A stretch of DNA of 64,000 nt from Loxodes magnus (lineage: Eukaryota > Ciliophora > Karyorelictea > Loxodida > Loxodidae). This document shows, in pieces, positions 2,767 to 62,784 of this stretch (position 1 is the first letter of the stretch; every line of letters begins with the position of its first letter). The notes beneath the pieces were generated by a model, which did no database searches, was not told the DNA's origin, and saw nothing but the letters and a program-made list of their open reading frames with translations. The stretch covers positions 18,533 to 82,532 of the forward strand of contig CAMPDV010002050.1 in the NCBI GenBank assembly GCA_946699065.1, given 5' to 3'. The translations under genes were made by a program, and so were the position numbers.

Positions 2767-3046
2767 TTTTAAAAATATTTTAAGAAGAAAAATATTCAAA
2801 TGCTTCGTCTATTTCAAAAACAGGAAATTCCTCTATTTCCTTCTCACACAACCTTCAAAAAATTTAAAGATTTAAAATAAAGAAGGTAATTAAATTCTAC
2901 TTTTAAAAACAGAAAAAGAAGCAATTATTTTTAATCGTGGTTTTCCTATCATATATCAAGAATGATGATAAATTTTAAACAAATTTAATAGTGGAAAACC
3001 AATCAAATGTGATTCTGAATTAATAAATTGTTTTGTGGTATGATAT

Positions 3047-3500
3047 GATATTCTATTAATATAAAATGGATGTCGGCCGCGTCAGATAAATTAGTAGGTA
3101 ATTGGTTCAGTGTATACTTCATTGCGAGTAATCTCACACTAGATGCCACCATGGGGAAGGGTGGATAAGCTCCGTTGAGACATGTCTAACTTACCCCGAG
3201 GGTTCTCTCTAGCAGTATGAAAGTTTGATTGACGGGCCTTATAATTACCGACTTAATTACTCTTATTTGGACCCAATTCAAGAAGATTAAAGCATTTGAC
3301 TCAATTTTTAAGTATAATTTTTAATAAGAAGATTCCCATTTGGAGAAGCTGACATGACTCATTGGACTTCTAGAATTTTAACAAGAAACATGGGAACATT
3401 TTTCTTAATATTAAATATTAATATTGAAAGAGCTACGCGCCAATGAAGTGCTACGCGCTCTATAGTCATTTTTATTCATTTATTTATTTAATTATTTTAT
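3047..3500 (+). mobile_element. SINE-like retroposon, family S2, copy 1
   Basis: About 450 bp, matching 24908-25335 on the other strand. Both copies start just after an ATATAAAATGG leader and share a conserved head (GGTGCAG or GGTTCAG region, then a CCACCATGGGG block), a middle with a short conserved reading frame (DMTHWTSR or EMTHWTSR), and a 3' end folding into a hairpin of the type GAGCTACGCGCC...CTACGCGCTC followed by an (ATTT)n tail. The same 3' hairpin and tail occur on other elements in the window (15715, 30560, 37575). The head also resembles 33330-33460. No target-site duplication was clear. Confidence 0.65.
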
Positions 3501-12478: not shown

Positions 12479-13461
12479 TAAAATAACGTAAAAAATGGTT
12501 GAAGGTTTCAAGTCCGGCTTCTATACCACCTCTTCCTAAGCCAAAAAGGAAGGGAGGAAGCAAGAAACCAGGTCTTAATAATCTTAACAATCTTCTCTAT
12601 CACAACCTTAACCAACACTGAATTAACAACTTGGAATCTAACAAAACGAACGAAAGCCAACCTTGAAGAATATACACAGGGAAACTCCAACCTCAAGCGA
12701 GAAACCGAGGAAACAGATTAAGTCTGTTCTCCACCAGAAGGTATCAAAGTTCAATCCTTCTGGCCAGATGAGCATGAAGTAGCTCATCAAAGTGGTACTG
12801 AACCTCCAGGAAGAGTTCAAGAGATTGAAGAAGGACAATGATATGCTGATGGTAAAGTTAGATCTAGCAGAAGGAATTGAGTCAAGACTTATGTCCTAGG
12901 AAAGAGATCTTAACGCCTTTTGGAATATCTCCCAAAGTCAGACTAATGAATCCTAAAATTAGTTTTAGAAACAGACTGAACTGGATAACAGACTCGGAAA
13001 AGTAGAAGAGAAATTGTAAACTTTTAAGAAAGAGTAAAGCGAAACTAGAGCTATACAAATGGAAATCGAAGCCTAGAAAGAGCAAACAAATCAAGGAAAA
13101 TAATTCAAAATAAAAAAGAAATTTTTCTTCTGTGGAAGTGTATGACATTTTTATCGGAAGTGTAAGAAATTCTAATAGAAATAAAGAAACTATTGGATAA
13201 AAGAACAACAAAAGAAGAAAAAAGAAGAAGCAAAAATGAAAAAAATGTATTGCAGCCCGGATGGTTCAATATACAAGATTAAGATGGAACCAAGGCAAGT
13301 TAAAGGAGGGAAAACCTGGAAAAATCCAAGTTCTCAATCTCGCTAAAATTGGGCGACCCGAACTTTTATATTTAACAGCAGGGAGCATGAATTGCTGTAT
13401 TCCTGACGGAGTTGGAAATCCCTAAAACGGAAAACTTAAAATTGATATTATTATTATTATT
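12479..13461 (+). mobile_element. Gag-only retroposon G2, complete
   Basis: Flanked by the 18-bp direct repeat TATAAGAGATATTAAATT (12461-12478 and 13462-13479). It begins a few bases before the ATG of its single ORF and ends in an (ATT)n tail. No reverse transcriptase frame is present, so it must be mobilised in trans. Confidence 0.8.
12495..13445 (+). CDS. Gag/ORF1-like zinc-knuckle protein (element G2)
   Basis: 316 codons from ATG to TGA (13443-13445), reading TAA/TAG as Gln. The start MVEGFKSGFYTTSSQ matches the start of the 17978 gene and others. The middle is a charged coiled coil (LQEEFKRLKKDNDML; GKVEEKLQTFKKEQ) followed by the family motif AIQMEIEAQ. The zinc knuckle is FFFCGSVWHFYRKC at about residues 210-223. 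The second Cys (213), His (218) and last Cys (223) are spaced as in CCHC, but the first Cys is Phe, so metal binding is probably weakened. The C-terminus is basic (GSIYKIKMEPRQVKGGK). It is inferred to be an RNA-binding retroposon protein. Confidence 0.75.
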
Positions 13462-15775: not shown

Positions 15776-16147
15776 ATTTTTTATAGAGACATTTTTCAAG
15801 TACTTAATAAATAATAAAATTCTCAAAATTTGTATCGCTTTAAATATTTCAATACTTATTTCCTAAAATATTAGAGAAATTAAATTAAATTAAATTAATT
15901 AAAATAAAATTTTTTTTATTTAATTTTTCAAAAGTAAAAGAATGTAAAATGGTTATTTTAAAAATTTATATTTTTTAATAATATGAATTACTTTACATTT
16001 ATCTATATAATTAAAATAAATTAATAAATTAATTTTTTTCTGATAGATTAAATTAAATTAAATATTTTATTATGTTAAATATAAATATATTTACAAACAT
16101 TAAATTATTTTAATTTATATCTGTTTTTATTAATCATTAATCATTAA

Positions 16148-17185
16148 TCATTAAAATAACTGCTTGCCTTCCGGATTAATTGAGTTTTAAATGTATAAAA
16201 TCTTAGTTCCTGCATGTTCTATCCTTGCTTAACTCTTTTTTCCTTGACTTCTCTCTTTTGAATAATCTGAGTTGAAACTTTTTTCTCCAGATTTTCCCAT
16301 TTTCCTATGTGAAGAATTCCGTCACTCACTACTTCAGTTGCTTTTAGTTAACATTTCTCCAGATATTCTTTTATTTTGTTCTATTGGGGACATTTCCGCC
16401 GTAAATGTCAAGTGCTGTTGCAAATGTAGCATCTTTTTCTTGCTCTCAGAAATGTCTTTTCTTGTTTCTCTATTTCCATTGGAGCTCCTTATTAAGGCTT
16501 CTACAGTTTTCTTCTATTAATTTGGTCTTGAATCTAATTTCACTCAGTTTTTCTCGTCTTGCTCTTGCATTATTCAAATATCATTCTCTTAACTTGCAAT
16601 TTTATCACAAACTCCAACTTTAAGCTCTTCGGTCTACCATATGGACTTCATCATCATCTTCATGAATTATCAAATTCTGACTTAGTACAAACATCTCTTC
16701 CTTCTGGGAGTTTAAATCCTCTTCGAATTTTTTTATGTTTCTAATAAGTTGATAAATCAGGTGCTTCATCTACTTTGAATCCATTTATTTTATTTCTGTA
16801 TTGTCTAAATAAAAGGTAATAGGATCTATATTGAATTATCGTACTTTTCCTTCTTTATTAATTTTTTATTTTTTCGTTATTATTTTTATCGATTCAGTTG
16901 ATTGGTCTCTTTTTTCAGTTTTCAATGGAGGTGTTGAGAGCTGAGTTTAATTTTTCTGTCCTGAATTTTATCTCAGTTCTTACTTGTCCTTTGATGGGAA
17001 AAATCCGCTTTATTTTAATTTGTAGTAGTTAGTATTTTTATAAGTTATTCCAATCTATTAGATAATTCTGGTTATTTTTATTAAGAACAGCGTTAAGTTT
17101 AAGAAGACGTGGTGAGATTATGTGCTTCTGGTTTTCTCTCCTATTCTGAGGAGGTGGTAAAAAAACTCTTCTTGAAGTCAGCCAT
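16148..17185 (-). pseudogene. Gag/ORF1-like retroposon protein G3, frame-damaged
   Basis: Closely matches G8 at 34532 (opposite strand). It starts MADFKKSFFTTSS, has a Gln-rich region, coiled coil (RNIKKFEEDLNSQKEEM), a GAPMEIEKQ motif and a perfect CCHC knuckle CYICNSTWHLRRKC, and ends with TGA (16150-16148) beside a (TAATGAT)n tail. In the knuckle the Trp is TGA. Relative to G8 it lacks one base just before the PMEIE region, so the frame is broken there. Both G3 and G8 also change frame once more in the N-terminal third, at a place where a 23-nt GTAAG...TTCAG stretch would restore the frame if spliced. Confidence 0.6.
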
Positions 17186-17773: not shown

Positions 17774-17967
17774 AAATAAATTATATTATATTAAGTTAAA
17801 AGGAGTTAATAGTTCCAAAAGTTAGTTTCACTAATCTTAAAAAAGTTTTCTCTTGAACTAAAGAACGCCTTAGGACCTCATTAGTCCCCCTATTGCAATT
17901 TAAAAATTATTTTCGAAATTGTTAAATTTTATATTATAAAATTTTTTCCTATATATTATGTCTGAAT

Positions 17968-18902
17968 TAAAAAAAATATGGTAGAAGGTTTCAAAAAAGG
18001 CTTCTATACCACCTCTTTCTAAGCTAAAAAGGAAGAGAGGAAGCAGGAAACCTAAATTTCTAAACACCACACGTCATCTTCCAAAACCAAACCTTCTTCT
18101 TAAACCATATAGGAGCAACTCTAAACAACACCCCCCAGACAACCCTAGAAATACTAACATGCAACAATATCGACTGAGGACCTTCCCAAGAAGCAAAAGA
18201 TTAGTAACTTTCAGGCCTAGATTAGGACATTCAACCCCTACATGGACCTCGGAGATCTCAATAAAGAACAAATCTTAGGAATGACGAAGGAGGAAATGGC
18301 TAAGCTTATCTTAGCATTAATAGGAAAAAATAAAGATCTGGAAAAACTGATTGAAGAACTAGCTTAAGAACAGCAAGAGCATTTGGAAGATGAGGAAACC
18401 CATGCTCCTAGAAACTTAAACCAGGCTGCAATGAATATCAGAATTGACGAATTCGATAGGCAGCTGGAACAATTATACGAATCGAATGAAAATATTCATA
18501 TCAAATTGGAAAAATTAGAGACAAGTGTAAAATAATAGGCTATGAAATCTATCCCAATGGAGATTGAATAAGAGAATAATAAGCCAATTGAACAAACTAA
18601 AGAGAAATATTTTAGGAAAAAATGTTACATCTGCAGGAGAACAGACCACCTATGGAGACGATGCTGGAAGAGAAAGGAGATTTAATAGAAAATATGGAAT
18701 GACCTAGCCTAATTTTACCCAACCAGGAATGGAGAAATTTATAAGAAGAAAGCAAGCTATATGAAGAGACAACCATTCCGAAAACTTGACAGTGAAGGGA
18801 GGAGAAGACCACCTAGAGATCAAGTTCCTATTGGTTGGATAGGGAAGTAGGAAGCTTTTAAGTAGACAATCCTTCTTTAACACTTTAATTTAATTTAATT
18901 TA
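17968..18902 (+). mobile_element. Gag-only retroposon G4, complete
   Basis: A 17-bp direct repeat, ATATATTATGTCTGAAT, brackets the element (17951-17967 and 18903-18919). The left repeat ends about ten bases before the ATG and the right one follows a (TTTAA)n tail, so the whole element is only about 935 bp and has no room for a reverse transcriptase. This is the cleanest example of the family. Confidence 0.85.
17978..18878 (+). CDS. Gag/ORF1-like zinc-knuckle protein (element G4)
   Basis: One uninterrupted frame from ATG with no in-frame TGA until past the element. It begins MVEGFKKGFYTTSF, has a Gln/Ser/Thr-rich stretch, an acidic helical region (NKDLEKLIEELAQEQQEHLE), a second helix (DEFDRQLEQLYESNENIH), the motif SIPMEIEQEN, and an intact CCHC zinc knuckle at Cys216, Cys219, His224 and Cys229 (CYICRRTDHLWRRC). 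The C-terminus is basic (GRRRPPRDQ). The end is ambiguous: TAA and TAG codons near 18866-18880 would have to act as stops, or the frame runs on into the flank. It is the best preserved member of the family. Confidence 0.75.
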
Positions 18903-18929
18903 ATATATTATGTCTGAATAATTAGGTCA

Positions 18930-19455
18930 TATTTAAAATAATTTTTCATTCTTTTTCTTTTATTTTTTCATAATTGCATATTCTCTTATATTTTTTTATT
19001 TTTTTCAATGTCCATAGGCATGATTTCCTGATTAATTATTTAGATAATTTCTTATTATTATACTTATTTTTCTTAAGTTTTTTTATTTGATATTGGAACT
19101 AAGAATACTTAAATAAAAATATTTGAGGGATTTAATTAAATTATTTGTAAATCTTATTCAGTTAATATATCATTTAAGATTATATGCTAATAATTGCATC
19201 TTCTTTAGATGGAAATTAATAATTTAGTCCTCCACCTATTTTTCTAATATCCTTTTTAGCATTTCAACCTTTAATCTTTGTTGTTTTAATTCATATTGTA
19301 GATTTAATATTCTTTAATGATGTGATTTTGCAAAAGAACCTTGAGATTACTATTTTTTACTTATTAAGGCGATTATTCAATTAAATTAGATAATTAGGTT
19401 TTTTTAGGTATTTATTGAGAGAGGTCTGTTATTTCTTAGGCACCATTTTATTTGT
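18930..19455 (-). pseudogene. Decayed Gag/ORF1-like copy G5
   Basis: The minus strand starts MVPKKQQTSLNKYL at about 19453, matching the start MASKKQQNFEQN of the intact 20065-20799 gene. It later shows the motif MPMDIEKN. Between these the sequence is mostly degenerate and no zinc knuckle remains beyond a CNY fragment. Interpreted as a decayed copy of the G6 lineage. Confidence 0.45.
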
Positions 19456-24166: not shown

Positions 24167-24907
24167 AGAAAAATTTAATTTAGAATATATATAATTACAA
24201 ATATTTTTTGGGTTTTAGCTTTAATGAAAATGAAATAAAAGAAAGATAAGCTAATTTTTTAAGGTAAAAAAGAATTTAAATAATGATATCTCTTTTTTCT
24301 CTTTCTTAATATATTTCTCGGCTAAAAATACTCTCAAAAAGTTAAACATGATAAGCTAATAATTTTAAAATCAAAATTTCATTATAAGTAAAATAATTAA
24401 ATCAATTAGAGCTAATCAAGAAAAAAATAGGAGTTTACTTAATTTTTTTTAACAATTATTGAAGTTTTTTTCGACATTCTGAAGGAAAATATCTTAAAAT
24501 TAAATTATGATTAAAAATTTCAATAAAATTTAGGTATATTTTAAATATATTCAGCAAAGTTTATTTTTTATAATAGATAAAATTAAATTTTAGCAATTTA
24601 ATATAAAATAAATGATAATAATATGTTTAAATTATAATTTTTAAAGTATTAGTATTTGCTTAGCTATAAAATTAATAACAATCGCCTTAAAAACCACTCT
24701 TTAAAATATTACAACTATAAAGTATAAGAAACTGTAACTTTATTTACCATTAATTGATTTTCTTCTTTCACAAAAAACTTTATTATAATTAAAAAAATGA
24801 GATAGTAAATATTTTGAAATATGGATAAAGCTCAGAAAAGAACTAGAATTTTTATAATTTAAAAAAGAATAAAATTTGGATTAAGATTAAGCATTAATAA
24901 ATAAATA
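24167..24907. other. AT-rich spacer
   Basis: No feature seen. A/T-rich 3' flank of the preceding gene. Confidence 0.45.
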
Positions 24908-25335
24908 AATAAAAATGATTATAGAGCGCGTACCACCTCATTGGCGCGCAGCTCTTTTAATATTAATATTTAATATTAAAAAAATGTTCTCATGTTTCTT
25001 GCTAAATCTCTAGAGGTCCAATGAGTCATTTCAACTTCTCCAAATGGAGAATCTTCTTATTAAAAATTATTCTTAAATCTTGAGTCAAATGCTTCAGTCT
25101 TCTTGAATAAGGTCCAAATAAGAAATAGTTATTAAGTCGGTAATTTGAAGTCCCGTCAATCAAACTTTCAGAACCCTCGGGGTAAGTTAGGTATTCTCAA
25201 CGGAGCTTATCCCCCCTCCCCATGGTGGAATCTAGTGCAAGATTACTCGCAATGCAGTATACACTGCACCAGATTACCTACTAATTTATCTGACGTGGCC
25301 GAGATCCATTTTATATTATATTAATAAAATATTGA
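24908..25335 (-). mobile_element. SINE-like retroposon, family S2, copy 2
   Basis: Minus-strand copy of the element at 3047-3500, about 80-90% similar by eye. It has the 3' hairpin (GAGCTGCGCGCC...GTACGCGCTC) followed by an (ATTT)n-type tail at 24890-24920, and the conserved CCACCATGGGG block in the head. Confidence 0.65.
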
Positions 25336-25470
25336 AATGGAAGATATAAATGATGGTAATAAAAATGTATAATAAATAAAATATTAAAAGTTAGCATATA
25401 ATATAGAATAATTATCATATAATAAAATATTAAATATCTTATTTTCATATTTATTAATAATCTATTTTAA

Positions 25471-26890
25471 ATGGACTAAGATAGAAGTCGCAAAGACTAA
25501 AGTGGCCAAAATCGTAAAATATAACAAAAGGAAAACTTTCACTATTCGGACAATTCAATTTGTATTAATTGAAAGATATTCAGAAGGTAAGATATTGAAC
25601 AATAGTTGAAGGTTATTATTCATAATAAGAGAGTAATATTCTATTTGTTAGACAGTAAGAGTAAAAACAATAGAGAGTAAATTTTGTTACTTGATTATAG
25701 TTAAATCAACTTAAGAGGATTCTTAATCTAAATTAGAGAGGAAAAGTATTAATTTTACACAGAAAGTATTAATTAAATACCTTTAGAAAGTAAAATTTAA
25801 GATTCCACTAGAGTGTAATGCAATTTTGATTACAAAATATAGAATAAAATTTAAGATGCTTTCAGAAGGTAATAAAACATTTTATAGAAGGTAAAAAGTA
25901 AAAATTTATAATAAATTTAAGTTTTATGTTAATAGAAAGTAACTTTGATAACTTTAGATAGTATTAATTTATCTAAGGAGGTAAGTAGAAATAAATTACA
26001 GAGAGTAAAAATTTTAAATAATAAGGAAATGAAGATTTAATGAAATAAGATATGAGTTAGATAGGAGTAGTGAATCTATCTACAATGATCATAGATAAAA
26101 TAAAAATTGTTTAAGACTGTAAATTTTAAATAATTCAGTCCGTAAGATTATAATTTACAAAGGGAGTAATCTTTAATTATATAGTTGGTAATATATTAAA
26201 GCAAGCGAGTATGAATTCTAATATTTCAGATTGTTAGCTTTTAATACAGCTTGTAATGATTATAATTTAAGTTGGTAAGATACTAAAATAAGTGAGTAAG
26301 TAATAAAGATATAGAATGTATTAAATTTAAAAAAGGTTGTAAAAATTATAATTAAGATGGTAAATAATTTAATATGTAGCTAGTAATATTTAATAACTAT
26401 AGAGCGTAATTAATATTCCATAAGATTGTAAGAACATCATAAAGACCGTAAGAAATAACTTTAAATCAGGTAGTAAGGATTAATTTTAAAGATGGTAATA
26501 GATATAATTTTAAAGTTGGTAAGTATTAAATGCTAGTTGGTAAGAAATAAATAATAGTTGGTATATAAATAAAAATATCAGTTTGTAAATACTCTTAACT
26601 AAAAGATGGTAATACTTTAATAATCAGCATGTAAATTTTAAGATGCAGGATGTAATAATTAAAATTTTAAAAGAATGTAAGCAAAATAATTTTAGGAGGT
26701 TTTTTTATAATTTATTAGGTAAAAACTATAATATAAGTCGGTAAAATATAAAATTATAAAGATTGTAGAAAATTTTTATTTACTTCAGTTGGTAAATATT
26801 TAATTTAAAAGAAGAATGTAAATCATGCTAAATATAGAAACCTTTAACTCTAATTATAACTTTATTTCATTTAAAATTTATTTATTTTAA
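25471..26890 (+). CDS. Gene shredded by ~47 mini-introns with 3-nt exons
   Basis: The ATG at 25471 opens a 91-nt exon (MDQDRSRKDQSGQNRKIQQK...). From 25562 on, GT-AG segments, mostly 17-24 nt, alternate with very short exons. Between 26119 and 26837 I place 31 consecutive introns; 29 of the exons between them are exactly 3 nt and one is 6 nt. Longer exons of 45 nt (25701-25745) and 93 nt (26026-26118) also keep a multiple of three. Splicing all of them keeps one reading phase, and joined codons give sensible protein: IKSTQEDSQSKLERK, then LMKQDMSQIGVVNLSTMIID, then KCYAKHYRNVVVV. Two units (about 25815-25868 and 25891-25935) are irregular. The 3' end is undetermined. No family is recognised. 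Confidence 0.7.
26119..26837 (+). repeat. Regular mini-intron/micro-exon array, strict part
   Basis: The motif AG-NNN-GTA recurs every 20-25 bp. Intron starts read at 26119, 26142, 26166, 26188, 26209, 26233, 26253, 26275, 26296, 26318, 26339, 26360, 26383, 26406, 26428, 26448, 26473, 26495, 26519, 26540, 26561, 26585, 26609, 26631, 26652, 26677, 26699, 26741, 26765, 26792 and 26818. Interiors are A/T and do not resemble each other, so this is not a tandem satellite. The interval 26699-26737 is either one 39-nt intron or two abutting introns with no exon between. Confidence 0.8.
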
Positions 26891-27445
26891 TTTATAACTA
26901 ATCAAATATTTATATATATTTTTAAATAAAAATTTTAATTAGAAACAGTTTCACGTTTACAGGAGAAAATCAAGGATAAGTTTTCTTAAAAATTATAAAA
27001 TAAATAAAAAAATATTTTATTAAGATAATCAATTTCAATCGATTAGATGAGATTTAAAAAATAAAATTATTATATTGGTCTTAAATATTTAATTTTTACA
27101 ACTTTAATTTTAATCTTAGTAAATAGGAAAAAATTCATTTTTATTAATGTTTTTTTGATTATTTAAGTGCTAGCACGAGGGCCTAGCGTTTCAGGCAATT
27201 TACAATTTTTATTGAAATTTTCACATGGAAATTAAAATCTTGCTAATTTTTCATTTTATGGTTATTAAAATTATAAAAACTTTTTTCTTTATCTTATTTA
27301 GAAAATTTGTACTTTATGCATAACTTTCTTCACAATATTTTTCTAATATTAATTTTATAAAACATTGATTATTTAAACTGGATTATTGCAGATTTATAAT
27401 AACTTAAATATAATTTATTCCATTAATTGATTTATTAATAAACTT
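26891..27445. other. AT-rich spacer, possible 3' part of the mini-intron gene
   Basis: The reading phase of the mini-intron gene continues open here, but composition is A/T-dominated and I cannot support an end. A short G/C-richer palindromic patch lies near 27171-27187. No other feature. Confidence 0.35.
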
Positions 27446-34531: not shown

Positions 34532-35562
34532 ATGGCTGGCTTCAAGAAGGGCTTTTTACCACCTCCTCAGAATAGGAGAGAAAACCAGAAGCACATAATC
34601 TCACCACGTCTTCTTAAATTTAACGCTGTTCTTAATAAAAATAACCAGAATTATCTAATAGATTAGAAGAACTTATAAAAATACTAACTACTACAAATTA
34701 AAATAAAGCGGATTTTTCCCATCAAAGGACAAGTAAGAACTGAGATAAAATTCAGGACAAAAAAATTAAACTCAGACCTCCATTGAAAACTGAAAAAAGA
34801 GACCACTCAACTGAATCGATAAAAATAATAACGAAAAAATAAAAATTAATAAAGAAGGAAAAGTACGATAATTCAATATAGATCCTATTACCTTTTATTT
34901 AGACAATACAGAAATAAAATAAATGGATTCATAGTAGATGAAGCACCTGATTTATCAACTTATTAGAAACATAAAAAAATTCGAAGAGGAATTAAACTCC
35001 AAGAAGGAAGAGATGTTTGTATTAAGTCAGAATTTGATAAATCAAGAAGATGATGATGAAGTCCATATGGTAGACCGAAGAGCTTAAAGTCGGAGTTTAT
35101 GATCAAATTGCAAGTTAAGAGAATGATATTTGAATAATGCAAGAGCAAGACGAGAAAAATTGAGTGAAATTAGATTCAAGACCAAATTAATAGAAGAAAA
35201 TCTGTAGAAGCCTTATCAAGGAGCTCCAATTGAAATAGAGAAACAAGAAAAGACATTTCTGAGAGCAAGAAAAAGATGCTACATTTGCAACAGCACTTGA
35301 CATTTACGGCGGAAATGTCCCCAATAGAACAAAATAAAAGAATATCTGGAGAAATGTTAACTAAAAGCAACTGAAGTAGTGAGTGACGGAATTCTTCACA
35401 TCGGGAAATGGGAAAATCTGGAAAAAAGTTTCAACTCAGATTATTCAAAAGAAAGAAATCAAGGAAAAAAGAGTTAAGCAAGGATAGAACATGCAGGAAC
35501 TAAGATTTTATACATTTAAAACTCAATTAATCCGGAAGGCGAACAGTTATTTTAATGATTAA
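34532..35562 (+). CDS. Gag/ORF1-like zinc-knuckle protein G8
   Basis: Near-identical partner of G3. It starts MAGFKKGF; a T-tract is one base shorter than in G3, which puts the next segment (TTSSEQERK in G3) out of frame. From about 34756 a long frame runs cleanly: KKRPLNWIDKNNNEKIK, VRQFNIDPITFYLDN, RNIKKFEEELNSKKEEM, QEDDDEVHMVDRR, GAPIEIEKQ, the zinc knuckle CYICNSTWHLRRKC (first Cys codon 35277) and NPEGEQLFQ, ending in TGA beside a TAATGAT tail. The N-terminal and main frames would be joined by splicing a 23-nt GTAAG...TTCAG stretch at 34733-34755. RNA-binding retroposon protein by analogy. Confidence 0.6.
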
Positions 35563-35714
35563 TGATTAAACAAAACACTGCAGATTATAGTGATTTTGTA
35601 AATTAATATTTTAATTTATTTTAATATATTTATGATTAAATTCTAGCTTTATTTTTATATTTTTTTATATATTTAAAATAAAAAATTTGTAAATTTAAAT
35701 GTTTCACATATTTC

Positions 35715-44409: not shown

Positions 44410-47400
44410 TTCTTTGCTAATTTTACTTAAAGTTATTATGCTATAGATGCACTACTAGTTATGCTATTAGCAATTTTTTCTAATATTATTATTTATTCTT
44501 TGAGCAGCATTTTATTTAATTTACCTAAGCTATCTTGTAACTAAGAGTAAGGTTATTTAAGTAATAAATTATTAAGTTAAATTTGGATAGATTAAGTGCT
44601 TACTAGTTCAATTATATAGCTTATAGCCTTTTTAATTATAACGATGATAAAAATGAAGTTATATGCTTTATTCATATGACTTATCAACTCCTTTTCTCTT
44701 GAAATAGGGTTTTTATATAGCGATTAGAATTTTGGAAGTAGAGCTGTTGGTCAGATTAATGATTATATAGCTTCTTAAAAGTTCTAGTTTACTATAGTTG
44801 ACTATCAAGTAAATGGCATACAATAAATTGAGGAAAGCTTTGATTCTCTAAAGAAGAAGCATTCTTTTATTGTAGTAGACGCTACCTTTAATGAATAGTT
44901 CTCATTTTTAATTTAAAAACTCTCTCTAGATTTAGGCTTTACTCATCTAGTTCTCAACTAAGAAAATCCTAATGTTCAGTCTGATGTCACAACCTATTTG
45001 ATTCCATCAGATTAAATGATAGCAAGCTGCATTATAAATTTCTTTGACTATTGGAATTGAACAACTATAGGATTTTTCACAGACGTAAAGTAGTCAAATG
45101 AAGCTGAATATCTAAGATAGAAAGTGTAAGTTACAAGAATCTATTAGATTCTTTCCAATCATTATTATGAATCCTTGCCTAAAGTTATTCCTATCTATCT
45201 AAAGGCATTTGGAACTCAAATCTTCTACATTTCAGCTTAAGAGCAACTTTATTGGCTAATTAATATCACTATCGCTTCTAATAACTGAAAGCCAGGAACT
45301 GCTTTTGTAATAAGCTTTAGAAACTCACGCCTTTTTTGGTAATAAAGTCAGAAGATTGAGGGATTGGTTGGGTTCAATTTTGGTAAAAAAATAACTTAAA
45401 CAGAGCAAGAATTCTAAATATACTGCTTAGAACTTCTTTTGGAAAGCCTTGGTAAATGAAAGTTAGACTATTTTGATTCATTCTAGCTTTAGCAGTTAAT
45501 CAAAACGCTAGAAAGATCAAATTAGTTTTTAGTCCCTCTTCAATTTTAAGTCTTTAATGTTCAATCTAACTAAGTCAAGTAAGTTGGAACTCTTAATTTA
45601 ACTCATTTTCTTCAGACTCAACCAATTATATGGCCTACAGGAACTACAACACATCCAACTGGAGGAGACATAGAGATTTCCATGAGTATGGTAGATGATA
45701 ACTATAATCCTGATGGATCTTATATCGAGTGAGTGAACAACTATTATAATGGCAGAAAATATGCCCTTAAGTATATTGAAGATCATCCTGAAATTTTACC
45801 TTTCTACAAACTAAAGAATACCATGATATATACTGGAGCTACGGTTGCTGACTTTGCTTATATAGAAAAAGAGTTTAATCTCAAAAAAAATGATTTAGGA
45901 ATATTTTTATGTTCTTCAGCAGCAAGTAGTGCTGGCTTAGGTCTTCACTAATATTTCAAAAGTATAGGGTGGATGTAATAAACAGGAGGGTCTAATAAAT
46001 CCCCAGATTTTTCAAGTATGTAAGAGTATCCATGATATGTAAGAACTACTATGAGTGATGCTTTTCTAGGCTTATTAATTGCGAGATTTTGTGCAGAAAA
46101 GCAGTGGAAAAATGTTGCAATGGTAGTTGGAAACTCTGCCTGACCATTAGGAATAGGAAAAAGTTTCATAGCAAATTCAAAGTCTTTTGGTATAAATATC
46201 TCAAATAGTTAGACTTTACTTCCTGAAGTAGTAAAAACAGCCAATATTTCAGACTGACATCCTATAATAGAAGAAGTGTATAAAGCTTCCAGAATCATTA
46301 TCATTCTTCATTACTTAGACGATACATGGCAAATAGTTCAATATTTGTGAGATTTAGGAGCAAGGAGTGGAGATGTAGAGATTCTTGGTTCCGAGTGGCT
46401 ACTTATGAATTTTTAAAATTACTCAGATAATCCAGAACGTTTTATGTAGCTTGTTAAGGGAAGTGTCCAGTTTTTCAACTAGGCATGAGTTGGAGAGTTA
46501 GGATAGGAAATAAAATTAGGCTATGAGCAATGGTATCATACGACGGCAAAGATAGGAGGAACGGCGTTTGAATTCGATTTAGCTTATTTAATTGCAAAAT
46601 CTTTAGCAAAATTAATTTAAGAAGGAGAAGACTACAATAAATTTGGAACTCTAGTCTCAAAAATGAGAAACTTTCAAATCATCGGAGCAACAGGAAGAAT
46701 AATTATAGAAAGCCAAAAAAATGAAAGAGCTCAACTTCAGTATTTTATATGAAACTACAGAAAATCGGAAACGGGAGAATGAACTGTATAGTAGATTGGA
46801 AACTTCTGTCCTACTTGTGAGATTGTATGAATTTATGAATAGCCTGCAATGTGAGGAGATGAAACTACTTGCGTATATTTAGATTATTGAGAATTAGAGT
46901 GTCCATTTAAAGAAAGAGAAAGAGAAAACTTTCAGAAAGGAAGATACGTAAAATTTTCGATGCTGCTAATTTTGTTCGTTATAACAATTGCTTGCGCCTG
47001 TAAAGGATTAAAGGATTGCAAATAAGTATAAATAAAATATCTAGAGTTAAATGTATTTACAACAGTATAAGATATGTTCTAGATTTCTTATTTAATTATA
47101 ATAATATTTTAGATTTTAGTTTTAGGACCTAGCTTCGAAACCTATGGAAGAGGTGCATAAGTAATTTAAGAGTTATTTCTTGGTGACATCATAAGAGCTC
47201 TTAATGTAGACTAAAGAGATTCTATTTATACGTAAATAATAACTTCAATAATCGGTTACTCTTTTGTACTTCTAAGTTTCGCCGTGATATTTAAATTTGA
47301 GTTTTAGGAAATTAAAATTCTTTCGAAGATTGGGATTTCAGCCTACTACTTAACACCATTGATGTCTTAGATTTTATTTATTCCAATATTAAATAATTTT

Positions 47401-48184
47401 ATTGACACATTTATTTGCACTGAAGCCTTTGATAGTAATAGAGATGGAAAATTGTCTTTCAAAGAAAGCTTCTTTGTAAAGACTTGCTGGGAAGGATGCT
47501 GGTAAGATAAGCATATAATAGCAGTAGTTTTAGTTAGTATTGGAATAATAGTTTATTTACCTATAGCAGTATACTTAAGACCTCTACTTTAGGAAATTTA
47601 AGGAAACTTACTTCATATTAAATTCGATGGAAGCTACATAATGATCTTAACAATAGAGAGTTCTTTCCTTGTATTGGCTAAAAAATTGTAAGACGAAAGT
47701 AGAATAGCTCATGCCTTACTTTATTTAGTAAGTCTTTCTCTCTTTCTATCAGCATCTTTGAAAATTAGACCTTGCTCTTTTAGAAAATTAACAATAATAT
47801 GGAATTTTTTTATAGTATGTAATATATACTTAGGTATAATAGGAACTATTAAAATAACTTACTAATTCAAATATTATAATTGAGTAATAATAGCAGGATG
47901 CATTATCATCTTAGTAATAGGATATATAATAAGTAGCAAGGAGAGTAACTATCTAAAAAAGAGTAACTAAAGAGATATAAGTGGATTGATAAGATGAGCT
48001 TATTAATTTAAGAGCAAATTATAATACTTATAATAGCATATTGAGCAACAAACCTTAGAAAATTTAAGGAATATGTATTTCACTAGAAAACTAATGAGTG
48101 ATCCTGACTATTTACTAACTATGCATAGCGTAGAAGAACTAGACTTAGAATTTGAAAACTTTATTAAAAATGGAAGAAACTTTA
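44410..48184 (+). repeat. Inverted repeat, left arm (3.77 kb)
   Basis: Reverse complement of 59011-62784. I compared the arms line by line and found 16 substitutions in the 3,528-nt shared coding part and a one-base T-tract difference plus one substitution upstream of the ATG. Arm ends are abrupt at both sides. Confidence 0.9.
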
Positions 48185-58758: not shown

Positions 58759-61700
58759 TCAGCTTGTATAAAAGGTTAGAAAATTTAATTTGGAGTATTA
58801 AATTTTAGATTCTGTAACTTCTAAGAATTTTCGGGGTTTCTTTACTTTAAACATTTTAAAAGCAAAGATCTTCATTTACAATAGAAGAAAAATTAAATTG
58901 ATCTACATTAAAACTTACTTTAACTTTATTAGCTTGTTTTGGCTTATTTTATTGCTATATCAAAAGTCTCATCAAAAGAACATAAATTATTCTTTATAAT
59001 GCTTTGAAATTAAAGTTTCTTCCATTTTTAATAAAGTTTTCAAATTCTAAGTCTAGTTCTTCTACGCTATGCATAGTTAGTAAATAGTCAGGATCACTCA
59101 TTAGTTTTCTAGTGAAATACATATTCCTTAAATTTTCTAAGGTTTGTTGCTCAATATGCTATTATAAGTATTATAATTTGCTCTTAAATTAATAAGCTCA
59201 TCTTATCAATCCACTTATATCTCTTTAGTTACTCTTTTTTAGATAGTTACTCTCCTTGCTACTTATTATATATCCTATTACTAAGATGATAATGCATCCT
59301 GCTATTATTACTCAATTATAATATTTGAATTAGTAAGTTATTTTAATAGTTCCTATTATACCTAAGTATATATTACATACTATAAAAAAATTCCATATTA
59401 TTGTTAATTTTCTAAAAGAGCAAGGTCTAATTTTCAAAGATGCTGATAGAAAGAGAGAAAGACTTACTAAATAAAGTAAGGCATGAGCTATTCTACTTTC
59501 GTCTTACAATTTTTTAGCCAATACAAGGAAAGAACTCTCTATTGTTAAGATCATTATGTAGCTTCCATCGAATTTAATATGAAGTAAGTTTCCTTAAATT
59601 TCCTAAAGTAGAGGTCTTAAGTATACTGCTATAGGTAAATAAACTATTATTCCAATACTAACTAAAACTACTGCTATTATATGCTTATCTTACCAGCATC
59701 CTTCCCAGCAAGTCTTTACAAAGAAGCTTTCTTTGAAAGACAATTTTCCATCTCTATTACTATCAAAGGCTTCAGTGCAAATAAATGTGTCAATAAAATT
59801 ATTTAATATTGGAATAAATAAAATCTAAGATATCAATGGTGTTAAGTAGTAGGCTGAAATCCCAATCTTCGAAAGAATTTTAATTTCCTAAAACTCAAAT
59901 TTAAATATCACGGCGAAACTTAGAAGTACAAAAGAGTAACCGATTATTGAAGTTATTATTTACGTATAGATAGAATCTCTTTAGTCTACATTAAGAGCTC
60001 TTATGATGTCACCAAGAAATAACTCTTAAATTACTTATGCACCTCTTCCATATGTTTCGAAGCTAGGTCCTAAAACTAAAATCTAAAATATTATTATAAT
60101 TAAATAAGAAATCTAGAACATATCTTATACTGTTGTAAATACATTTAACTCTAGATATTTTATTTATACTTATTTGCAATCCTTTAATCCTTTACAGGCG
60201 CAAGCAATTGTTATAACGAACAAAATTAGCAGCATCGAAAATTTTACGTATCTTCCTTTCTGAAAGTTTTCTCTTTCTCTCTCTTTAAATGGACACTCTA
60301 ATTCTCAATAATCTAAATATACGCCAGTAGTTTCATCTCCTCACATTGCAGGCTATTCATAAATTCATACAATTTCACAAGTAGGACAGAAGTTTCCAAT
60401 CTACTATACAGTTCATTCTCCCGTTTCCGATTTTCTGTAGTTTCATATAAAATACTGAAGTTGAGCTCTTTCGTTTTTTTGGCTTTCTATAATTATTCTT
60501 CCTGTTGCTCCAATGATTTGAAAGTTTCTCATTTTTGAGACTAGAGTTCCAAATTTATTGTAGTCTTCTCCTTCTTAAATTAATTTTGCTAAAGATTTTG
60601 CAATTAAATAAGCTAAATCGAATTCAAACGCCGTTCCTCCTATCTTTGCCGTCGTATGATACCATTGCTCATAGCTTAATTTTATTTCCTATCCTAACTC
60701 TCCAACTCATGCCTAGTTGAAAAACTGGACACTTCCCTTAACAAGCTACATAAAGCGTTCTGGATTATCTGAGTAATTTTAAAAATTCATAAGTAGCCAC
60801 TCGGAGCCAAGAATCTCTACATCTCCACTCCTTGCTCCTAAATCTCACAAATATTGAACTATTTGCCATGTATCGTCTAAGTAATGAAGAATGATAATGA
60901 TTCTGGAAGCTTTATACACTTCTTCTATTATAGGATGTCAGTCTGAAATATTGGCTGTTTTTACTACTTCAGGAAGTAAAATCTAACTATTTGAGATATT
61001 TATACCAAAAGACTTTGAATTTGCTATGAAACTTTTTCCTATTTCTAATGGTCAGGCAGAGTTTCCAACTACCATTGCAACATTTTTCCACTGCTTTTCT
61101 GCACAAAATCTCGCAATTAATAAGCCTAGAAAAGCATCACTCATAGTAGTTCTTACATATCATGGATACTCTTACATACTTGAAAAATCTGGGGATTTAT
61201 TAGACCCTCCTGTTTATTACATCCACCCTATACTTTTGAAATATTAGTGAAGACCTAAGCCAGCACTACTTGCTGCTGAAGAACATAAAAATATTCCTAA
61301 ATCATTTTTTTTGAGATTAAACTCTTTTTCTATATAAGCAAAGTCAGCAACCGTAGCTCCAGTATATATCATGGTATTCTTTAGTTTGTAGAAAGGTAAA
61401 ATTTCAGGATGATCTTCAATATACTTAAGGGCATATTTTCTGCCATTATAATAGTTGTTCACTCACTCGATATAAGATCCATCAGGATTATAGTTATCAT
61501 CTACCATACTCATGGAAATCTCTATGTCTCCTCCAGTTGGATGTGTTGTAGTTCCTGTAGGCCATATAATTGGTTGAGTCTGAAGAAAATGAGTTAAATT
61601 AAGAGTTCCAACTTACTTGACTTAGTTAGATTGAACATTAAAGACTTAAAATTGAAGAGGGACTAAAAACTAATTTGATCTTTCTAGCGTTTTGATTAAC

Positions 61701-62542
61701 TGCTAAAGCTAGAATGAATCAAAATAGTCTAACTTTCATTTACCAAGGCTTTCCAAAAGAAGTTCTAAGCAGTATATTTAGAATTCTTGCTCTGTTTAAG
61801 TTATTTTTTTACCAAAATTGAACCCAATCAATCCCTCAATCTTCTGACTTTATTACCAAAAAAGGCGTGAGTTTCTGAAGCTTATTACAAAAGCAGTTCC
61901 TGGTTTTCAGTTATTAGAAGCGATAGTGATATTAATTAGCCAATAAAGTTGCTCTTAAGCTGAAATGTAGAAGATTTGAGTTCCAAATGCCTTTAGATAG
62001 ATAGGAATAACTTTAGGCAAGGATTCATAATAATGATTGGAAAGAATCTAATAGATTCTTGTAACTTACACTTTCTATCTTAGATATTCAGCTTCATTTG
62101 ACTACTTTACGTCTGTGAAAAATCCTATAGTTGTTCAATTCCAATAGTCAAAGAAATTTATAATGCAGCTTGCTATCATTTAATCTGATGGAATCAAATA
62201 GGTTGTGACATCAGACTGAACATTAGGATTTTCTTAGTTGAGAACTAGATGAGTAAAGCCTAAATCTAGAGAGAGTTTTTAAATTAAAAATGAGAACTAT
62301 TCATTAAAGGTAGCGTCTACTACAATAAAAGAATGCTTCTTCTTTAGAGAATCAAAGCTTTCCTCAATTTATTGTATGCCATTTACTTGATAGTCAACTA
62401 TAGTAAACTAGAACTTTTAAGAAGCTATATAATCATTAATCTGACCAACAGCTCTACTTCCAAAATTCTAATCGCTATATAAAAACCCTATTTCAAGAGA
62501 AAAGGAGTTGATAAGTCATATGAATAAAGCATATAACTTCAT
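58759..62542 (-). CDS. Receptor with two Venus-flytrap domains, copy 2
   Basis: ATG at 62542-62540, same domain order as copy 1. The first 1,176 codons are colinear with copy 1 without any indel, with 16 differences: ten synonymous (for example GGT/GGC, CGT/CGC, AAT/AAC) and six replacements (V/I, G/E, T/I, G/S, C/G, M/I). Past 59011 the sequence diverges sharply but remains homologous (SFDETFDIA against SFDISDQTFNFA), and a 16-nt intron is present at 58918-58903. The divergent stretch is 8 nt longer, so the frame entering the intron is not the one matching copy 1's tail. Spliced as read, it ends at TGA 58761-58759, 1,255 residues. The tail may be altered or damaged. Confidence 0.8.
58903..58918 (-). 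other. 16-nt intron in receptor copy 2
   Basis: GTAAGTTTTAATGTAG on the minus strand. It differs from the copy 1 intron at two positions and sits at the homologous site, inside sequence that has otherwise diverged strongly. Confidence 0.7.
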
Positions 62543-62784
62543 TTTTATCATCGTTATAATTAAAAGGCTATAAGCTATATAATTGAACTAGTAAGCACTT
62601 AATCTATCCAAATTTAATTTAATAATTTATTACTTAAATAACCTTACTCTTAGTTACAAGATAGCTTAGGTAAATTAAATAAAATGCTGCTCAAAGAATA
62701 AATAATAATATTAGAAAAAATTGCTAATAGCATAACTAGTAGTGCATCTATAGCATAATAACTTTAAGTAAAATTAGCAAAGAA
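59011..62784 (-). repeat. Inverted repeat, right arm (3.77 kb)
   Basis: Reverse complement of 44410-48184, about 99.5% identical in the coding part. Includes about 240 bp upstream of the ATG. Confidence 0.9.

Follow-up and report, generated by a model that had tools for sequence, protein, structure and literature searches.

The stretch of Loxodes magnus DNA analyzed here (64,000 nucleotides, referred to as the window) carries an array of very small putative exons at 25562–26837, in which our curated parse recognizes 47 segments with GT-AG borders and, between them, 46 inner exons. Exactly 3 nt were found for 43 of the 46 exons and the remaining three measure 6, 45, and 93 nt, i.e., all 46 are divisible by three, as an earlier note on this DNA had claimed for the longer ones. 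Segment lengths are 17–24 nt in 44 of 47 cases; the other three segments, of 39, 45, and 51 nt, look like fused units in which an inner splice site was lost. For the strict part of the array, 26119–26837, the earlier note had given 31 introns and 29 exons of 3 nt. We found the same number of introns but counted 30 exons, as one acceptor choice differs. The array region has the following features:

25338..25561, plus strand: possible 5′ coding exon or exons, assigned by eye, starting at ATG 25338, which gives phase 0 on entering the first intron, or at ATG 25471, which gives phase 1.
25562..26025, plus strand: first array part in the curated parse, with 16 GT-AG segments (17–24 nt, and fused ones of 51 and 45 nt) and exons of 3 nt apart from one of 6 and one of 45 nt.
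26026..26118, plus strand: inner exon of 93 nt in the curated parse, the frame of which is not decided by codon usage.
26119..26837, plus strand: strict array part with 31 GT-AG segments and 30 exons of 3 nt, from the parse, spacing counts, and shuffles.
26268..26402, plus strand: six-unit stretch in register with the micro-exons of another locus, L057, from a weak DNA alignment.
26648..26697, plus strand: candidate stop cluster inside the array, phase-1 spliced codons TGA TAA TGA, from translation of the parse.
26699–26737, plus strand: fused segment of 39 nt within the strict part, from the curated parse.
26838..26960, plus strand: sequence 3′ of the last acceptor, by eye free of TGA in phases 0 and 1.

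Between 25500 and 26840, the pattern AG-N3-GTA occurs 43 times, compared with 0–6 matches for each of the spacings 0–2 and 4–9. In 1000 dinucleotide shuffles, AG-N3-GTA reached a mean of 3.18 and a maximum of 9 matches, and the longest run was at most 3, compared with 27 in the array. The rest of the window has no other place with four or more AG-N3-GTA per 500 bp on either strand. The G+C content is 31% in the 3-nt exons versus 12% in the intron interiors. The interiors, claimed to share no sequence, do share little: neighboring introns were not more similar than in random order (p 0.19), although Tandem Repeats Finder detected short periodicities of 21–25 bp at 26448–26588. Despite mutually unlike interiors, GT, AG, and the 3-nt register are kept in 44 of 47 segments. 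The branch-point motif YTNAY was present in 21 of 47 introns, versus 19.7 in shuffles. A near-identical copy of the array lies on contig C134, with three differences in 1571 nt. Two of them affect the 5′ exon and the third a fused intron; the micro-exons are identical. A home-made gene finder called neither of two arrays. Just upstream of the window array, a G+C-richer repeat (24896–25332) has a diverged inverted copy 21 kb off at 3043–3488 (87–92% in pieces).

Introns of L. magnus have a mean length of 19.3 nt with a mode of 17 nt, and 93% are 25 nt or shorter (PMC11441545). By size, the 17–24-nt segments of the window are hence ordinary introns, and the oddity of the array is its 3-nt spacing. 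The genetic code was read from a window gene at 44653–48000, where an ANF_receptor domain was found with E 1.3e-21 when TAA and TAG were translated as Gln and TGA as Trp, versus E 0.01 at best for any one piece delimited by TGAs. Within genes of this genome, UAA and UAG encode Gln and UGA encodes Trp; with TGA as a sense codon, Tetrahymena and Paramecium were rejected as hosts. UGA has been described as stop or Trp according to context in this species, with coding UGAs depleted near the gene end (PMC11441545). The ANF-receptor-like gene is present twice in the window, in inverted arms (44410–48184 and 59011–62784; 3555 + 223 nt, 100% complementary, about 10.8 kb apart) that are either a palindrome, an inverted duplication of recent date, or a fold-back artefact of assembly. 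Elsewhere in the window, an ORF at 17966–19090 (also 12490–12569) has a CCHC zinc-knuckle-like motif, seen by eye, and a repeated start region, and is probably a retroelement gag-like gene; near it, 16137–17163 has an inverted copy at 34553–35569 (97%). A Kelch repeat lies on the minus strand at 803–1300 (Pfam Kelch_4, E 8.5e-5, above cut-off).

The window array is not the only one of its kind. We searched 705,730,643 bases on 7,843 contigs and found the 3-nt-spaced design genome-wide and tied to a large gene family. The scan for AG-N3-GTA spacing that the earlier note had proposed gave 42,234 three-unit runs (20152 + 22082) versus 1,157 (670 + 487) in the reversed control, where overlapping matches within one array were scored separately and some matches are simple repeats, e.g., on C6 near 517 kb. 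At 4-nt spacing, 675 runs (419 + 256) compare with 1,261 (513 + 748) in the control. Twenty random 10-kb pieces of the genome contained no 3-nt runs of four or more, i.e., the arrays are local.

Outside the window, we read six array loci (L009, L032, L033, L034, L035, and L057), five found via the array pattern and one via similarity to the window array. In all six, some of them judged by eye, the array lies directly 3′ of a ubiquitin-like domain, and it follows the coding gene in one orientation; L032, L033, and L035 are mutual relatives. Pfam placed ubiquitin above its curated cut-off in L009 (E 6.6e-7) and L034 (E 2.5e-6), and a RING finger in L032 (PF13923, 3.5e-6). Below cut-off were ubiquitin in L032 (4.1e-4) and, just so, RING in L009 (4.9e-5). 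The fetched piece of L034 contains no RING finger, the ubiquitin-like domain of L057 was assigned by eye, and L033 and L035 match the L032 protein and look decayed by eye. From these domain matches, the array carriers appear as a large gene family with a ubiquitin-like domain and, where the 5′ part was seen, a RING finger upstream. The L009 protein (P0002) gave at least 111 scored matches in the genome among 2,595 first-look candidates, the weakest at 56% identity; these identities are underestimates because Gln codons were treated as stops, and even at its own locus the query reaches 87%. For 20 of the 111 matches we fetched the 3′ flanks, and all 20 carry arrays; since these paralogues were found via the protein, they are no test of the link between array and gene. 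In the protein database, P0002 had 1660 candidates, none at E ≤ 1e-5.

Three of these loci showed further peculiarities. The largest array read, in L032 (1748–4941), is a chain of 113 triplets of which the first few are doubtful, i.e., about 110 single-codon units; several of its long introns can be resolved into a pair of 24-nt introns flanking a triplet, where GC has replaced GT. On the minus strand of L034 (836–1551 of the reversed piece), an array of another type follows the ubiquitin-like domain, with mostly 28–29-nt related introns and variable triplets. At C1798:26214–35138, the 3′ constant micro-exons lie 8.9 kb from the domain end and this is perhaps a single array of nearly 300 codons, the first 1.7 kb of which was read (L041).

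Family arrays have a common order of domain, 5′ constant triplets, variable block, 3′ constant triplets, and final exon. After the domain, the constant triplets are a variable ATN, AACAAG, GAT, GGG, ATA, ACT, and ATT with variants; at the 3′ side, they are ATC GTG AAT GGG GAC with variants. The 3′ end is reached in 12 of 21 members, and in all 12 the final exon starts with TGA (TGATGA in 11, TGATTA in L055). The distance between the domain end and an exact copy of the 3′ constant triplets was 0.8–2.8 kb in 12 cases and the 8.9 kb of C1798 in one; a fourteenth copy had no partner among the listed genes. Introns between constant triplets are mutually different, and the variable block repeats one intron. 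Young arrays are tandem units, each of one near-identical intron and one triplet; the units that flank them, though in the same register, contain unrelated introns. For 22 arrays (L009, L036–L055, and L057), the median per-site diversity was 0.0138 in introns versus 0.603 in triplets, counting only units of modal intron length with at most five mismatches, which lowers intron diversity. Triplets were more diverse than introns in 22 of 22 arrays, and six arrays with 16–36 counted units had no intron difference at all. Different genes use different small triplet sets. The closest pair, L047/L048, had no intron differences and three changed triplets in 44 aligned units, although the alignment of such repeats is ambiguous. 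Multi-unit repeats occur in L039, L043, and L047. Read as codons, the variable blocks differ strongly in their amino-acid sets, e.g., TGG, AAC, and AAA in L051, TTC and ATG in L050, and also in L054. In the arrays parsed for triplet sets, 23 of 64 triplets were never seen; some TAA in these lists are artefacts of overlapping AGTAAGTT, a few TAA remain after correction, and the corrected parse ends early in some members.

Constraint in the arrays is position-specific. We aligned 90 units of the old array in L032 without requiring splice sites and found 3.1% divergence at GT/AG versus 20.2% in the interior (Fisher ~5e-19, from rounded counts). Changes at the T of GT went to C in seven of eight cases, GC being the usual tolerated donor variant of GT. 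Deletions fell 69 times in intron columns and never in triplet columns, where 10 were expected, and all 12 insertions were likewise in intron columns. In L049, L050, and L051, GT/AG diverged by 1.2–1.4% versus 5.1–7.1% in the interiors, and 21 paralogues had 0.12 changes per site at GT/AG versus 0.76 in intron interiors. The conserved GT/AG together with indel-free triplets indicate selection for splicing and for triplets staying at three.

The constant triplets also change in a codon-like manner. Among 21 paralogues, their changes per site amounted to 0.46 at position 1, 0.62 at position 2, and 1.54 at position 3, where the 3′ part rests on 11 of the 21 members and the 5′ flanks of L039 and L055 were trimmed to a fixed length. 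The corresponding rates for codons in the ubiquitin-like domain were 0.87, 0.57, and 1.48. Position 3 took 20 of 34 constant-triplet changes (p 0.002), though this base touches the donor site. The lack of changes in TGATGA is uninformative, since the 3′ members were chosen for holding it. Constant triplets as whole codons in phase 0 would fit these rates. Against phase 0 count the ubiquitin-like exon, which enters the array in phase 1 and ends at GTAAGTTC in 21 of 21 members, and UGA triplets that L009, L036, and L054 contain 8–10 codons from the end, where coding UGAs are reported to be depleted. Between L032 and L057, moreover, 6, 4, and 0 of 15 triplets differ at positions 1, 2, and 3, opposite to a codon pattern. 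In 12 members, by eye, the final exon opens with a TGA in phase 0 and has another TGA in phase 1 nine bases further, hence the 3′ end does not choose between the two. Codon usage in 25 arrays scored −4.062, −4.087, and −4.074 per codon, with the phases split 9/8/8, and thus favors none of the three frames.

How does the window array relate to this family? Its upstream part had no Pfam, RING, or ubiquitin-like match; the ubiquitin-like domain, sought in the first part of the window in one frame, scored inside the shuffle range, and blastp of three proteins gave no match to it. At DNA level, 26268–26402 aligns with the micro-exons of L057 (C2403) just 3′ of its ubiquitin-like domain, with 74% identity over 144 nt, six units in register, and indels in introns only. 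In a three-sequence search this match had E 1.5e-12; as other registers also match with up to ~1e-6, composition contributes to the similarity. A genome search with the window array returned 41 partial matches at 71–77% in the 26268–26402 part. We consider the window array weakly tied to the array family by this DNA match, and its copy is best seen as an old or diverged, unhomogenised member of the array class.

Taken alone, the window array showed no codon signal and no domain. One reading phase set by the first exon had been claimed for all of it: phase 1 is open, but it meets TGA TAA TGA up to 26697 and is not favored by codon usage, which in the 3-nt tail scores below 99.7% of shuffles of the triplet order. 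Translated in phase 0, the tail is hydrophobic and resembles a membrane segment, which does not prove this phase. The homologue expected for the spliced product was not found, as its protein database search gave four candidates, none at E ≤ 1; the earlier note had named such an absence as one part of the evidence against its reading. It is conceivable, if rather doubtful, that the window copy is a dead relic (pseudogene) of an array class that functions elsewhere. Three fused introns, the missing codon-usage support, and the lack of a recognizable upstream domain would agree with this, and the decayed-looking L033 and L035 show by eye that such relatives exist. On the other hand, GT, AG, and the 3-nt register are intact in 44 of 47 segments with unlike interiors.

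The central claim of the earlier note, a gene of codon-sized exons cut by tandem mini-introns, gains support from the 47 parsed segments and from relatives with signs of splice-site selection and codon-like rates. We think that the array is probably a real run of spliceosomal mini-introns between one-codon exons, ordinarily spliced and forming a variable C-terminal tail. From the sequence patterns, we infer that each intron is excised individually, that translation includes the triplets, and that the arrays are driven by unit exchange. If the mini-introns were spliced out successively by intron definition, single codons would be joined, the unit being one intron plus one codon. With exons of 3 nt each, a unit could be gained, lost, or skipped and the frame would be kept, and such frame-neutral units would allow arrays to grow and shrink by unequal exchange, which is suggested by the multi-unit repeats in three arrays. 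In young arrays, introns are kept near-identical while codons vary, which would leave each gene with its own C-terminal tail. Plain duplication would copy introns and codons alike and does not account for the contrast between the two; candidate causes are selection for tail variety, intron-limited conversion, and targeted triplet change. Only tentatively, we propose in addition a codon-by-codon diversity generator. Identical introns would then serve as recombination spacers and single-codon exons as shuffled cassettes, giving each RING/ubiquitin-like gene a hypervariable tail, as in recognition or defence, and the generator could possibly also vary each transcript through frame-neutral skipping.

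Other readings have to account for the same patterns. The whole array might be skipped as one long intron, its inner sites acting as decoys or recursive-splicing steps, so that the triplets never appear in mRNA. Exon definition is difficult with only 3 nt, every donor may be joined to any later acceptor without changing the frame, and some units do fuse into longer introns. We regard this as unlikely, since codon-like changes of constant triplets, 20 of 34 at position 3, and the indel-free triplets of L032 would be needless in a skipped stretch. About equally unlikely is the serial insertion at 3-nt spacing that the earlier note had suggested, i.e., mobile, introner-like introns that entered between the codons of an intronless variable tail. 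Identical introns beside different codons are the trace expected from insertion into existing coding sequence. However, spacing in the parsed variable blocks stays at one triplet with few exceptions, no half-filled tail with long exons was seen in the 22 arrays read, and young arrays consist of tandem units of near-identical intron and triplet with multi-unit repeats that point to tandem exchange.

Less probable still is an unspliced repeat built on an AG-N3-GTA core, either a minisatellite or a protein-binding sequence. Tandem repeats abound in this genome (PMC11441545), and young arrays are tandem repeats of near-identical units. But in-register flanking units have unrelated introns, conservation centers on GT and AG with GT changing to GC, the arrays follow coding genes in one orientation at 6 of 6 loci, and constraint is position-specific, with GT/AG constrained and the triplet hypervariable. 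Removal of the segments from DNA rather than RNA, as germline-limited elements, had been offered as a further mechanism. The host is a ciliate, but the segments are still present in an assembly equal in size to the macronuclear one (706 Mbp; PMC11441545), their sizes and borders are those of ordinary L. magnus RNA introns, and the title of that paper states that extensive DNA elimination is lacking in this species. We consider this the least plausible of the readings.

Several known systems resemble the arrays in part. Aphid bicycle genes likewise form a fast-evolving family with many small exons, but these exons are far above one codon and their introns are not known to be homogenised. TAL effectors consist of repeat units that are almost the same apart from one short variable position. 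This is an analogy only, as the constant part is protein in TAL effectors but an intron, which would be spliced out, in Loxodes. Introners and introner-like elements are the subject of, e.g., PMC4457414 and PMC3879977. They occur dispersed among many genes, whereas the Loxodes copies stand in tandem, one codon apart, in one gene. Introners do provide near-identical introns at many positions, as in young arrays and unlike the window array. Schistosoma micro-exon genes (MEG) also contain series of very short exons, most with lengths divisible by three, and are suspected of protein variation (PMC10526429). MEG exons, however, have 6–81 bp (most 15 bp) with 10–20 per gene, compared with 3 nt and tens to more than 100 in Loxodes arrays; MEG introns span 0.1–5 kb and are not said to be copies in the parts of that work drawn on here, while Loxodes introns have 16–34 nt and are near-identical in young arrays. 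Long introns of the MEG type are absent from the window array (17–51 nt). Single exons of 3 bp are known from the literature; isolated cases such as in RPS24 show that splicing of a 3-bp exon is possible, but these are not arrays (PMC12686416, PMC11162997). The mini-introns of heterotrichs and karyorelicts are of the same size class with GT-AG borders, and the available portion of their description contains no arrays of codon-sized exons, naming 'orphan introns' once, unexplained, in a legend (PMC11441545). A limited literature search of titles and abstract openings yielded no description of arrays of codon-sized exons.

Minimal exon size and splicing order have mostly been studied on isolated micro-exons; here, tens to more than 100 consecutive one-codon exons would be joined across 16–34-nt introns. 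Near-identical introns next to hypervariable codons are the reverse of what is usual, namely conserved exons and drifting introns. The arrays make testable how introns multiply, how a reading frame tolerates this, and whether a cell uses such a design for variable proteins. If this reading is true, a large family would be absent from, or wrongly annotated in, the gene models of such genomes.
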